A stretch of DNA of 48,576 bases from Oscillospiraceae bacterium (GTDB taxonomy: Bacteria > Bacillota > Clostridia > Oscillospirales > Ruminococcaceae): the NCBI GenBank assembly GCA_021199355.1, contig JAJQIF010000006.1:1-48576 (forward strand). Reading direction: 5' to 3'. Made by a program: the position numbers and the translations under genes. Positions 12,078 to 16,932 of this stretch are shown piece after piece. Under the pieces are notes generated by a model. That model did no database searches, was not told the DNA's origin, and worked only from the letters and a program-made list of their open reading frames with translations. How positions within the stretch are numbered: the stretch's first letter is position 1; each line of letters opens with the position of its first letter.

Positions 12078-12106
12078 TTGATATGCCCTGATTTTTGTGA
12101 TACAAT
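12078..12106 (+). promoter_or_regulatory. Promoter of the MBOAT-like operon
   Basis: TTGATA (12078-12083), a 17-bp spacer and TACAAT (12101-12106) place the start near 12113, about 27 nt before the TTG start codon. Confidence 0.65.
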
Positions 12107-12139: not shown

Positions 12140-13435
12140 TTGTCGTATACCGACCTAATATTCGTTTTCTGCTTTTTACCTATATATATGATTCTCTCAC
12201 TTCTTTGCAGTGAGACGAGGAACAAAAACCTTGTGTCGCTCATAATGTCAGTGGTGTTCATCGCCTGGGCGAGACCTCTGTATTATGCGCTTATCCTGGG
12301 CTTAATATTCCTCGTGTACCTTGCGGCAAGGCTCTGCGAGGGCGGAAAAATGCCGTGGCTGAGAATTGTTGCGGGGGCTGTGACAGTAGCTTTGTCGCTC
12401 TTCCCTATTATCAGCTTGGGCTCACTCGGAACCATCAGCGGCACCGTCTCGGCTATCGGGTTTATTCACTTCGATGTCCGGTCAGTCATGTATCTGAGGG
12501 ATTCCAAGGACGAAGCCGAGAAGAGCTTTGTCAACCTGTCGGTATACCTGATATCGTTTGAGATGATGGCGATTTCGCCCCTGTTCAGCTATTCGGAGCT
12601 GAGGGATCAAATCAAAGAGCGCCATGCCGGGCTTGCGATGCTGTCGAGCGGACTCGAGAGATTCATCTGCGGGCTTGCGGCTGTCACCGTCCTGGGCTTC
12701 CCGCTTGACAGGCTGGTGAATGCCGCACTGTTTGAAGGCTCGCGTCCGATACTCAATCTGATTCTTGGCGCCCTGTTCATGGCGATTGAAATCTATGTCG
12801 TGGCACTCGGCTATCTTTCGATGTCCGAGGGGCTTATGCTGATGAGTGGCTATCGTATCGAGCTCAATGCTGGGCGCTTTACTCCGAAGAGTCTCATGAT
12901 AGACCACGTCGGAGCAGTAAGCCCGACTTACAAGACCGCTTCCGAAAAGCTCACCGATAATCCGCTGTGGCTTATGCTTTCGGCGGTCGGGCTTTGCATT
13001 ATTGCGGGAGTTTCTTTCGGCGTCGGAGCCGGCGGGGTTGCACTCGCCTGCATAGTCGGCGTCGCCGTAGTTCTGCAGAAATTCTTCGAGACGAAAAAGT
13101 CAATCCCGGCAGGAGTGTTCACGTTTTTGGTGGCAATACTTGCGGTTTTCCTCTGCACCAACCGCTCACTCGGGGATTACGCTTCGTGGGTAACGTTCGG
13201 CGCGAATGACTACCTGATGAGCTACAGCCTCTGGGACGAGCTCTCGAGAGGCTGGATATATGTGCTGATTGCGATATTCTATATTTCGCCGCTGAGACCT
13301 CTTGCAGGAGTTCTCAAGCGAAAGATTATGACCGAGAACGAGAACTCTTACGGAACGATAAGAGTCGTGAGCACGGTCTTAGTGACACTGCTTCTCGTGA
13401 TTTCAACCGTTGCAATGGTAACAGCGGTTTACTAA
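12140..13435 (+). CDS. MBOAT (AlgI)-like membrane protein lacking the catalytic segment
   Basis: The 431-residue multi-helix protein starts with TTG at 12140 after AAAGGGGG. Its first 240 residues follow the AlgI/DltB-type MBOAT pattern in order: FVFCFLPIYM (start), SVVFIAWARPLYYALI (about 36-51; family FYAWGEP), SAIGFIHFDVRSVMYLRD (103-120; family ISFYTFQALSYLIDVYRG), SVYLISFEMMAISPLFSYSEL (133-153; family YVSFFPQLVAGPIVRY) and IYVVALGYLSMSEGLMLMSGY (217-237; family IYFDFSGYSDMAIGL). The next segment should hold the EFWRRWHISL active-site histidine; instead there is NAGRFTPKSLMIDHVGAVSP and a different set of helices. I infer that it cannot transfer acyl groups. The next gene resembles the usual AlgJ/DHHW partner. 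The assignment is by eye. Confidence 0.65.
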   Translation: MSYTDLIFVFCFLPIYMILSLLCSETRNKNLVSLIMSVVFIAWARPLYYALILGLIFLVYLAARLCEGGKMPWLRIVAGAVTVALSLFPIISLGSLGTISGTVSAIGFIHFDVRSVMYLRDSKDEAEKSFVNLSVYLISFEMMAISPLFSYSELRDQIKERHAGLAMLSSGLERFICGLAAVTVLGFPLDRLVNAALFEGSRPILNLILGALFMAIEIYVVALGYLSMSEGLMLMSGYRIELNAGRFTPKSLMIDHVGAVSPTYKTASEKLTDNPLWLMLSAVGLCIIAGVSFGVGAGGVALACIVGVAVVLQKFFETKKSIPAGVFTFLVAILAVFLCTNRSLGDYASWVTFGANDYLMSYSLWDELSRGWIYVLIAIFYISPLRPLAGVLKRKIMTENENSYGTIRVVSTVLVTLLLVISTVAMVTAVY

Positions 13436-13447
13436 GGGGGTTCAAAA

Positions 13448-14626
13448 ATGGCTAAGAAAAAAAAGAAGAACATCTCCCCGGAGATTGCCCCCGCTGTCGA
13501 CTCTGTCGAAGCACAAAAAACAGAAACCGTAGAAGAATCTTCACCTAAATTCGAAATCGGTCAGAAGGGCGACGAGTTCGACATAAGCTACTCCCGTGCC
13601 GTCAGGAACACAAACGCCGACGCCGACGAGCTTCTTAACGACCTCAGTCAGGAGCAGGGCGCAGACAGATACAACTTCATCGGATTCACGATTCCAGTCT
13701 TAGTGCTTCTGTTCTTTGCTCTCAGCTTCATTCTCATCAACCGCTCAGACTTTTCGGATGTATTCACCGCGAAGCTTTCGACCGAGACGGTCATGGACGG
13801 AAGCTATCTTGAAAACCTGACGTATGCCTACAACACCACCCTCCCCTTCGGCGACGGGCTTTCGGATATAGGCGAGTTCCTTGGGTTTGCTCCGAAGTCG
13901 GAGGATGAAGAGGAAGCCGAAGAGGATGAGTGGGATAACCTTGTCGAGGTTCAGGAGCCGGAGGTCACCGAGCCGGTCGTCACGACCGCTCCGACCACTA
14001 CCGAACCGGTAACCACGGCTACCACCGAAACGGTCGAGGAGGAAGTCCCCGACACCTATGTCATGTATGCAACGGGCACCGTCAACATAAGGCTTGAGCC
14101 CTCGAGCGACTCAATGATGCTCGGCTATTTCAGCGTGAATAACGAAGTCGACGTCATCGAAATCCGGGACGACGGCTGGGCTGAGATTTACTACAGCGGA
14201 GTTCACGCCTATGTCGATGCGGAATATCTGAGCGACACGAGAGTCGTTGTAACGACCACAACCGAGGCTACGACCGAAGTCACAACAACCACGGAAGAGA
14301 CAACCGAAGAGGTTACCACCACTCCCGAAGTGACGACGGAAGCCACCACCGAAGCGACGACAGAGGCTACCACCACAACCACAAGAATCACAACCTACTA
14401 TCCCGAAATCAATTACACGACACCCGCCACAACCACCACGCAGGCGACCACCACCGAGCCCACAACCGAAGCAACAACCGAGGCTACCACGGAGCCCACC
14501 ACTTCGGAGACGACCACAGCCGTCACGACCACTGAACCCGATGTAACCACAGAGGCACCGGTTACCACCTCGGTTGAGATAACCACTCAGCCTGTCGAGG
14601 TTCCCGAAGCAGGAGCGGCGGAGTGA
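13448..14626 (+). CDS. DHHW-like N-terminal stub with SH3b domain and Thr/Glu-rich tail
   Basis: The 392-residue protein has a lysine-rich cytoplasmic N terminus, one transmembrane helix (about 77-98) and then STETVMDGSYLENLTYAYNT with TLPFGDGL (111-138). This matches the opening of DHHW/AlgJ-type proteins (family pattern LESLLSGEF...YADHFPFRD) that partner MBOAT acyltransferases. The SGNH-like catalytic domain that should follow is absent. Instead there is an acidic linker, a bacterial SH3 domain (about 203-263: TGTVNIRLEPSSDSMMLGYF... DDGWAEIYY) and a tail of about 125 residues made mostly of Thr, Glu, Ala and Pro. SH3b domains often bind cell-wall peptides. It lies 12 nt after the MBOAT-like gene and overlaps the next gene by four bases. 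Function is unknown; a structural, wall-facing role is inferred. Confidence 0.65.
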   Translation: MAKKKKKNISPEIAPAVDSVEAQKTETVEESSPKFEIGQKGDEFDISYSRAVRNTNADADELLNDLSQEQGADRYNFIGFTIPVLVLLFFALSFILINRSDFSDVFTAKLSTETVMDGSYLENLTYAYNTTLPFGDGLSDIGEFLGFAPKSEDEEEAEEDEWDNLVEVQEPEVTEPVVTTAPTTTEPVTTATTETVEEEVPDTYVMYATGTVNIRLEPSSDSMMLGYFSVNNEVDVIEIRDDGWAEIYYSGVHAYVDAEYLSDTRVVVTTTTEATTEVTTTTEETTEEVTTTPEVTTEATTEATTEATTTTTRITTYYPEINYTTPATTTTQATTTEPTTEATTEATTEPTTSETTTAVTTTEPDVTTEAPVTTSVEITTQPVEVPEAGAAE

Positions 14627-15549
14627 ACCCCTACGGACGAAAGCGCTATCTGACGCTTGACACAGTTCTCAAGCGTGAATTTGGCGAAAAGGTCGTCAAG
14701 ATCCCGCTGAATGCGGGGATGACATGCCCGAATCGGGACGGAAAAGTCGGCGTCGGCGGTTGCAGCTACTGCTCGAATGCCCTGTCGGGCGAGTTTGCGG
14801 GGAATCCCCGTGAAAGCCTTCGGGAGCAGTTCGAGAAAACGAAGGCGCTGTATCTCAACAAATGGGGCGAGACGAAATACATCGCCTATCTGCAGGCGGG
14901 GAGCAACACCTATGCGGATGTTGAAACCCTCAGGAGTATATACTCCTCTGCCCTGTCCCTCCCCGTTGTCGGGCTGTCGGTTGCGACAAGAGCCGACTGC
15001 TTGGGCGAGGATGTTCTTGATTTGCTGTCCGAGATAAACGAAAAAACATATCTCACGGTCGAGCTTGGGCTTCAGAGCTCGAATGACAGGACGGCGAAGC
15101 GCATCAACCGAGGGCACACCTATGCCGAATTCCTTGAGGGCTACAATGCGCTCAGGGAGAGAAATATCAGGGTCTGTGTGCACATCATAAACGGTCTCGT
15201 CGGCGAGACGAGGGAGGATATGCTTGCGACTGCCAAGGATGTCGCGAGTCTCCGACCCTATGAAATAAAGATTCACCTTATGCACGTCATCAGAGGCACC
15301 CTCGACGAAAAGAGATACCTTTCGGGCGAGCTTGAAACCCTCTCGAAAAACGAATATATCGGCATCGTCTGCGACCAGCTCGAGCTTCTTCCGCCTGAAA
15401 CGGCAATAGGACGGCTCACCGGCGACGGCGACAGATTGACACTTGTGGCTCCCGCTTGGAGCATGGACAAAAGAAGCGTCCTCGGAGGAATCGACCACGA
15501 GCTCAAACTCAGGGATTCTTATCAGGGGAAGCTCTTTGAAAATATATAG
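14623..15549 (+). CDS. TIGR01212-family radical SAM protein (YhcC-like)
   Basis: The 308-residue protein starts at GTG 14623, overlapping the previous stop codon (GTGA). Cysteines in TCPNRDGKVGVGGCSYCSN supply the 4Fe-4S cluster that cleaves S-adenosylmethionine; the long gap between the first and the other two is typical of the TIGR01212/YhcC group. QAGSNTYADVETL and LGLQSSNDRTAKRINRGHT are further family features. The reaction of this family is not established, though tRNA modification has been suggested for relatives. Tight overlap with the surface-protein gene indicates co-expression, not necessarily shared function. Confidence 0.88.
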   Translation: MNPYGRKRYLTLDTVLKREFGEKVVKIPLNAGMTCPNRDGKVGVGGCSYCSNALSGEFAGNPRESLREQFEKTKALYLNKWGETKYIAYLQAGSNTYADVETLRSIYSSALSLPVVGLSVATRADCLGEDVLDLLSEINEKTYLTVELGLQSSNDRTAKRINRGHTYAEFLEGYNALRERNIRVCVHIINGLVGETREDMLATAKDVASLRPYEIKIHLMHVIRGTLDEKRYLSGELETLSKNEYIGIVCDQLELLPPETAIGRLTGDGDRLTLVAPAWSMDKRSVLGGIDHELKLRDSYQGKLFENI

Positions 15550-15561
15550 GGGGACGATATT

Positions 15562-16932
15562 ATGAAGAGAATTATCAGCCTGATTTTAGCGTTTGCGCTC
15601 ATGTTCAGCCTTTGCGGGTGCGGAGATGGTGCAAACAGCGATGAAACCGAAGTGACCGAGACTACCGAGGAGATGGAAGAAGTGGAGGAAGAGCCTGTGG
15701 TATATACTTATGACATGAGCACGCTCCCCGAGGTTTCGGAGCTCGAAGCTTCGGACGCTCTCACGGACCCATTCACCTTCCTTGACGGGACCTATGTTGA
15801 CAATGCCGACGACTGGGCAAAAAGAGTCGCCGAAATCAAAGCGATGTATCAGTACTATATGTACGGAATCTGGCGGGACGGTTCGGACGAGGAGCTCGCC
15901 TATTCCCTCGACGGGTCAACGCTGACCGTCTATATCACGAGAATAAGCACCGGCGCGACGACGAGCTTCACGGCAACCGTCAATATGCCGGACAGCGGTA
16001 TTTCGGCGCCCGACGGCGGCTATCCCGTTATCGTTGGGATGCACCAGGGAATCAGTGAGGACACGGCGACCGCAAACGGCTATGCCGTCATCACTCTTGA
16101 CTGGTACGCCTATGGCATTGCTTCGGACGACACCAACCACACCGGCGCGTTCTATGACCTCTATCCCTACGGCGACGACTGGCAGGAGCAGACGGGCGTC
16201 CTTATGGCTTGGAGTTGGGGATGCTCGAAGATACTCGATGCCCTCGAGGCAGGTCTTGGGGACGAGCTCAACATAAGCTCCACAAACACCGCCGTCACCG
16301 GCGTTTCACGTTGGGGCAAGGCGGCGATAGTCTGCGGCGTTTTCGACACGAGATTCAAGCTTGTCATGCCGTCCTGCTCGGGTGCGGGAGGAGTTGCGCT
16401 CTTCCGCTACACCTCCGAAGGCAAGACCTATGATTTCAGCTCGGTCGGGGCTTCGAGCTCGTATACATACACCCAGAACGAGCCGCTCTCGAGCCTTCAG
16501 GCATCCGGCGAAGTCGGTTGGTTCTGCGACAGGTTCAAGGAGTTCAAATCGGTTGAATACCTCCCCTTCGACCAGCATCTCTTAATCAGCACCATTGCGA
16601 GCGAGGACAGATATCTTTTAATCATCGGCTCCTGCATTTATGAGGACTGGGTCAACGCCCCGGCGATGTGGTATGCCTATGTCGCGGCGGAGTATGTCTA
16701 TGACTATTTGGGGCTCTCCGACCACATTGCAATCAACATCCACCAGCAGGGGCACGCAGTTCTTGCGGAGGATATCGAGTACATGACCGACTACTTCAAC
16801 TATCACGTCTACGGCATTGAGCCGGAGCTCGACCTTGACGATCTGAAGACCTCCGTCTTTGCGCTCGATGTGAACGCCGACAGCAGTATGGACAACTTCA
16901 ACAAGAAATGGATGGATGGACTGACATCCTGA
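15562..16932 (+). CDS. CE15-like glucuronoyl esterase lipoprotein
   Basis: The 456-residue protein has a lipoprotein signal (lipobox LCGC, Cys20), a Glu/Thr-rich linker (24-47) and an alpha/beta-hydrolase domain of the CE15 type. Visible markers are GVSRWGKAA (247-255, nucleophile Ser249), SCSGAGGVALFR (271-282), LPFDQHLLISTIASEDRYLL (334-353) and HQQGHA (394-399) with the likely catalytic His398. CE15 enzymes cleave the ester between lignin alcohols and 4-O-methylglucuronic acid on xylan, which agrees with GH3 and GH43 genes elsewhere in the window. It follows the radical SAM gene by 12 nt, with AGGGGGACG as the ribosome site, and is ended by a strong terminator. Confidence 0.82.
   Translation: MKRIISLILAFALMFSLCGCGDGANSDETEVTETTEEMEEVEEEPVVYTYDMSTLPEVSELEASDALTDPFTFLDGTYVDNADDWAKRVAEIKAMYQYYMYGIWRDGSDEELAYSLDGSTLTVYITRISTGATTSFTATVNMPDSGISAPDGGYPVIVGMHQGISEDTATANGYAVITLDWYAYGIASDDTNHTGAFYDLYPYGDDWQEQTGVLMAWSWGCSKILDALEAGLGDELNISSTNTAVTGVSRWGKAAIVCGVFDTRFKLVMPSCSGAGGVALFRYTSEGKTYDFSSVGASSSYTYTQNEPLSSLQASGEVGWFCDRFKEFKSVEYLPFDQHLLISTIASEDRYLLIIGSCIYEDWVNAPAMWYAYVAAEYVYDYLGLSDHIAINIHQQGHAVLAEDIEYMTDYFNYHVYGIEPELDLDDLKTSVFALDVNADSSMDNFNKKWMDGLTS

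Follow-up and report, generated by a model that had tools for sequence, protein, structure and literature searches.

Two adjacent genes, here called P1 and P2, lie at positions 12140-14626 of a 48,576-nucleotide stretch of DNA from an Oscillospiraceae bacterium (assembly GCA_021199355.1, contig JAJQIF010000006.1, positions 1 to 48,576 of the forward strand; hereafter the window). P1 encodes a protein related to the AlgI/DltB-type MBOATs and P2 a DHHW-type partner, and both appear to have lost their catalytic parts. An initial annotation of the window, made from the sequence alone, had placed two tightly spaced open reading frames here, and both proved intact and 12 bases apart. The pair and its parts are as follows.

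12140-13435, + strand: P1, a putatively dead AlgI/DltB-type MBOAT (pseudo-MBOAT); intact open reading frame of 431 amino acids with a TTG start behind AAAGGGGG
12479-12481, + strand: P1 R114, a Gln position of canonical AlgI that is basic (Arg/Lys) in 50/50 pseudo-MBOATs
12518-12520, + strand: P1 E127, a Gln position of canonical AlgI that is acidic (Glu/Asp) in 49/50 pseudo-MBOATs
12797-12820, + strand: P1 VVALGYLS instead of FDFSGYSD, residues 220-227, as aligned to the genome's own canonical AlgI
12905-12907, + strand: P1 H256, invariant in the genus (31/31), aligned with the Phe of EFWRRWH
13016-13018, + strand: P1 F293 (GVSFG), in the column of the canonical catalytic His of GLWHG
13448-14626, + strand: P2, a DHHW-type partner without an SGNH domain; intact open reading frame of 392 amino acids
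13538-13666, + strand: P2 N-terminal motif FEIGxKGDEFDxxYxRA ... ADxLLxxLS, residues 31-73, conserved and presumed cytoplasmic
13673-13738, + strand: P2 transmembrane helix, residues ~76-97, read off the sequence and the alignment
13775-13888, + strand: P2 membrane-proximal segment LSTETVMDGSYL...LPFGDGLSDIGEFLGF, residues 110-147, homologous to the start of the DHHW/SGNH partner
14078-14233, + strand: P2 SH3b domain (SH3_3), residues 211-262, from Pfam
14234-14623, + strand: P2 Thr-rich tail, from composition

Catalytic motifs and retained parts of the two proteins

We aligned the motifs of 31 MBOATs from the genus of the window, 19 other pseudo-MBOATs and 40 canonical MBOATs, with L152 and L158 set apart. 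The His of WRRWH, the His of GLWHG and the FxYxxF motif were each present in 40/40 canonical sequences. Among the 50 pseudo-MBOATs, the WRRWH His was retained in none and FxYxxF was found in the last 25 residues of none, while 49 lacked a His in the GLWHG column, the exception being L046. Loci outside the genus had been sorted by WRRWH or G[LIF]WHG, so the His losses in those 19 are partly true by definition; the FxYxxF counts, the type of partner and the genus rows are independent of that sorting. By comparison with AlgI and DltB, we take the GLWHG His to be the universally conserved His of MBOATs (His315 in PatA). The initial annotation had reported the loss of the catalytic His, and the WRRWH His that it pointed to is indeed gone from P1, but the main active-site residue is the GLWHG His, which is F293 here and likewise lost. 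A third loss, that of the Tyr of the C-terminal FxYxxF, went unmentioned there; the replacement of FDFSGYSD by VVALGYLS was described correctly. According to a study of C. jejuni PatA (PMC12148441), replacing the universally conserved MBOAT His, His315, abolished auto-acetylation, as did replacing the acyl-shuttle Tyr borne by the PatA FxYxxF. The loss of catalysis in the pair, as read from the alignment, appears well supported.

In the GLWHG His column, the genus carries Leu (10), Phe (9), Ile (9), Val (1), Tyr (1) and His (1). The pseudo-MBOATs of other genera have Tyr in 17/19 and a preceding Trp in 16/19, the GLWYG state occurring in five of these 19 sequences from related genera, and 18/19 have Asn for the WRRWH His. 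Across the 106 columns that are invariant among canonical MBOATs, retention was lowest in the active-site stretch, at 16% for the other genera and 11% for the genus, and highest in the N-terminal part, at 53% and 35%, respectively; of 13 charged or His invariants, 15% were retained in the genus. The replacement of Gln by a basic residue at R114 and by an acidic one at E127 suggests a new constraint on P1. H256 was considered as a displaced WRRWH His and rejected, as it aligns with the Phe of EFWRRWH and is confined to the genus.

The MBOAT fold is predicted with good confidence to have been kept. The best 25 PDB matches of an AlphaFold2 model of P1 were all MBOATs, with DltB on top, and profile-profile comparison matched the P1 family to canonical AlgI at 99.9% (E 1.5e-35). 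Single-sequence searches of P1 against Pfam and NCBIfam returned no family, or noise, PF03062 giving no match at E up to 1, and a PDB sequence search with the profile of 20 of the 50 pseudo-MBOATs (set A5) gave no match at E 1. PF03062 did match six of these 20 members (E up to 1), the best at 3.9e-8, above its cut-off. The initial annotation had named profile searches without an MBOAT or DHHW match as a refutation; the single-sequence Pfam search of the two window proteins would have counted as one, but profile-profile comparison finds both.

In the genus, P2 runs from the FEIGxKGDEFD motif (weaker in a few) through one membrane helix, DGSY...LPFGD, a Pro/Thr linker and SH3b to the tail. The membrane helix and DHHW opening first seen in the window are present (LSTETVMDGSYL and LPFGDGL), and profile-profile comparison of the P2 N-terminus with 36 DHHW partners gave 95.8% (E 6.8e-9), and 96.4% for the P2s of other genera, against 1.0% and 3.8% when a single control profile, the HtrA membrane region, was compared with the two P2 profiles. 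Single-sequence Pfam found no DHHW match in the window's P2 (E up to 1), and PF14286 hit the N-terminal segment in 3/19 other P2s, the best at 2e-5 over profile positions 4-125, just below the cut-off. Past the N-terminal segment, no SGNH domain with a DHHW motif was found in 30 genus and 19 other P2s, those of L125, L144 and L030 being cut off at the DNA end. The tail is usually Thr-rich, with a mean Thr fraction of 0.27 in the last 100 residues (range 0.06-0.49; canonical partners 0.06). The claim that SH3b and a Thr-rich tail stand in place of the SGNH domain holds for the window, but SH3b is a feature of the genus, SH3_3 being found in 30/30 genus P2s scanned vs 1/19 elsewhere. Judged from their sequences, the payload common to the P2s is the Thr-rich tail, not SH3b. 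Three canonical partners (L149, L153 and L154) carry a Thr/Glu-rich stretch at the joint between the N-terminal part and SGNH, and loss of SGNH from such partners would leave a P2-like tail. By eye, P2 of L043, L044 and L045 has a second SH3b-like stretch, and the P2 relative of L133 has ~110 extra residues behind its Thr/Glu-rich part, with no Pfam match. The motif at P2 residues 31-73 has no second copy in other proteins of its own genome.

Distribution, descent and selection

The pair was found in 31/31 genomes of the genus that were searched (in L030, the contig stops within P2). In an even draw of 247 family genomes, a pseudo-MBOAT related to P1 was present in at least four genomes of the genus and at least 18 from nine other genera; these counts are minima, because each genome contributed a limited number of candidates and only the stronger hits were read. 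One further locus, L125, came from a genome collection, in which relatives are labelled Ruminococcus sp., Oscillospiraceae, Clostridia and Candidatus Faeciplasma pullistercoris, with roe deer cecum named in a single title. The set comprises 50 pairs from 10 genera and one record without genus assignment, with a P2-type gene behind each MBOAT; what was proposed for the window, a loss of catalytic parts by both partners with order and spacing kept, recurs throughout this set. In 391 genomes of the class, 27 loci outside the pseudo-MBOAT set, taken from among the best hits, all had canonical motifs, and 26 had a DHHW partner; one of the 27 lies in the same family and one in the same order.

Pseudo-MBOATs and canonical MBOATs were separated by one split in three trees, the first two of which contain the catalytic columns, while the third omits them and shows the same split. 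L140, on a long branch joining the genus and maybe misplaced, was omitted from the second tree together with the genus. Bit scores leave no clean gap, canonical L149 scoring 146 like the two lowest pseudo-MBOATs, and class was decided by motifs. L158 (WQRWH) is canonical, and both it and L152 stand outside the 40 and the 50. L152 (G199) was considered for the pseudo-MBOAT set and rejected, since its catalytic His is intact and it groups among the canonical MBOATs. It belongs to a separate inactive-looking pair, in which WRRWH has become WKRWN and the C-terminal FxYxxF has become FIMFQI, with the GLWHG-type His kept (AFWHG); in its full-length partner, DRRL replaces DHHW and the Ser of the canonical DSYAN stretch is, by eye, lacking. 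In G043, of the same genus as G199, the pair is intact.

Both proteins are under purifying selection, with a ratio of non-synonymous to synonymous substitution rates (dN/dS) of ~0.1 among the 11 closest genomes. With 4 and 11 close sequences, dN/dS was 0.10-0.14 for P1, 0.11-0.12 for P2 and 0.05-0.08 for canonical AlgI, the values from 11 sequences being rough because dS was near or above 1. Occurrence in other genomes and purifying selection, which the initial annotation had named as points to check, were both borne out.

Proposed role at the cell envelope

Because catalytic parts are lost in both partners, the pair would be a non-enzymatic envelope module, as first suggested; this much follows from the losses, while the function itself is our inference. 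In the published PatAB model (PMC12148441), an acyl group passes from coenzyme A to the C-terminal Tyr of the MBOAT, then to a Ser of the partner and on to an envelope polymer; the PatB helix and two amphipathic helices contact PatA, and a low-confidence loop leads to SGNH. The ancestors of P1 and P2 would have been an AlgI-type MBOAT and its DHHW/SGNH partner, and the sequences show that every step of the relay has been lost: P1 has neither the catalytic His nor the second conserved His nor the shuttle Tyr, and P2 lacks the entire SGNH domain. Still present are the predicted MBOAT fold and two parts of the partner, its membrane helix and its membrane-proximal segment. This P2 segment is homologous to the part of PatB that docks on PatA in the published AlphaFold model, and may dock in the same way. 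P1 would then serve as a membrane platform holding P2 at the cell surface, P2 would reach into the wall with its long Thr/Pro/Glu-rich tail, plus SH3b in this genus, and the pair may, without enzymatic activity, tether the membrane to the wall or provide an assembly site.

We therefore favour, with some reserve, a non-enzymatic membrane docking platform (P1) with a wall-reaching partner (P2); a tether or platform seems the most economical reading of the parts kept and added, and the pair's job at the cell envelope is probably structural or regulatory. More tentatively, and with rather less assurance, the co-disarmed pair may form a family-wide envelope complex in which the docking interface is kept as a wall tether or sensor, with a new fixed charge pair in the MBOAT. 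If so, the docking part of MBOAT-SGNH machines would be a separable module. The joint loss of catalytic parts in enzyme and partner provides a natural test of MBOAT-SGNH docking apart from chemistry, and cautions that an MBOAT-DHHW-like gene pair alone is not proof of polymer O-acylation. A literature search, with most subscription papers outside its reach, found no account of a bacterial MBOAT-SGNH pair that is dead.

P1-P2 shares with PatA-PatB and AlgI-AlgJ/AlgX the MBOAT fold, gene order and tight spacing (PMC12148441), and P2 likewise has the membrane helix and membrane-proximal segment of their partners. Unlike those systems, P1-P2 has no catalytic His, shuttle Tyr or SGNH, and has a Thr-rich tail instead. 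DltB, an active enzyme, has DltX as its partner, and DltX bears FxYxxF (same source), whereas P1 is without any active-site residue.

Several observations weigh against a docking platform. L046 (G008) has GAAHG, the sole His of the genus in the catalytic column, with no FxYxxF or other catalytic motifs. In some P2s, Thr accounts for a fraction of just 0.06 among the last 100 residues, and SH3b is lacking in 18/19 relatives elsewhere, so SH3b wall binding would not be the common function. P1-P2 contact and wall binding by P2 are so far predictions from sequence. In addition, 16/18 genomes of other genera with the pair have a Pfam-recognised MBOAT at another place, and in at least three genus genomes (G008, G012 and G021) a relative of AlgI lies 4 to 6 kb from the pseudo-MBOAT, where a link of the pair to the canonical pair is possible.

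These last observations fit the best placed of the alternatives, though an improbable one in our view, namely that P1-P2 is a decoy or dominant-negative by which the cell controls its canonical AlgI-DHHW pair, in the manner of HHATL towards HHAT. HHATL (mammalian Gup1) has Leu for the catalytic His, a hydrophobic residue as in P1, is retained as a protein and is reported to lower Shh palmitoylation (PMC5831804). In all 31 genus genomes there is also a protein that shares 47% or more identity with the canonical AlgI of the window's genome (motifs not checked individually). However, HHATL is eukaryotic and HHAT-related, and in P1-P2 the partner's catalytic domain is lost too. The canonical AlgI pair in the window's own genome is on a different contig from P1-P2. 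G231 and G142, each 99% complete and with the pair present, gave no match to PF03062 or PF14286, and with the own canonical AlgI as query the pseudo-MBOAT was their only match. P1-P2, unlike HHATL in this comparison, can thus occur where no canonical pair is found, so a canonical pair is not required everywhere; this speaks against a purely regulatory role. Judged from its residues, P1 may be a pseudoenzyme of the HHATL type, without acyltransferase activity.

It is less likely still that P1 remains an enzyme whose active site has changed (a Tyr might stand in for the old His) or that uses another donor or acceptor. The Tyr, Trp and Asn states of the other genera would fit such an enzyme, and Asn/Asp is a known alternative at the second His position (PMC5831804), but the His column is not fixed within the genus of the window, none of the pairs has FxYxxF or the SGNH domain, and canonical invariants are least retained in the very stretch of the active site. 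Slightly weaker again is a carrier or channel-like P1, in which the old MBOAT funnel would move or bind a lipid or thioester and P2 would be a gate or wall contact; the predicted fold would allow it, but the charged and His invariants are mostly gone from the genus. Decay of a functionless pair is disfavoured and very improbable, for although the catalytic motifs are lost and dN/dS is ~2x that of canonical AlgI, the reading frames are open in 31/31 genus genomes and in 18 genomes of nine other genera, dN/dS is still low, pair and gene order are kept, and new residues have become fixed.

Neighbouring genes

Two further features adjoin the pair.

12078-12106, + strand: sigma-70-like promoter TTGATA-17-TACAAT upstream of P1, from a sequence scan
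14623-15549, + strand: radical SAM gene, its start overlapping the P2 stop codon

Four such promoter sites were observed in the region vs 3.2 expected by shuffling, and the site is weak evidence alone. The radical SAM gene comes next after P2 in 17/31 genus loci (among the 14 loci without it, two, L030 and L052, stop inside P2 or ~300 bases past it) and in 17/19 loci of other genera, the remaining two ending inside P2. Upstream of the pair, HtrA lies on the opposite strand in the window and is divergent in 28/31 genus loci, and an NAD-dependent epimerase-family gene (PF01370) is divergently upstream in 14/19 loci of other genera. A DUF4340 gene (PF14238 in L134; similar in L133 and L135) lies upstream of the pair in genus g107. 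In the window, positions 15562-16932 encode a protein resembling glucuronyl esterases (PF22244, 2.4e-45). Its gene has a promoter-like site at 15536 and directly follows the radical SAM gene in some relatives only.
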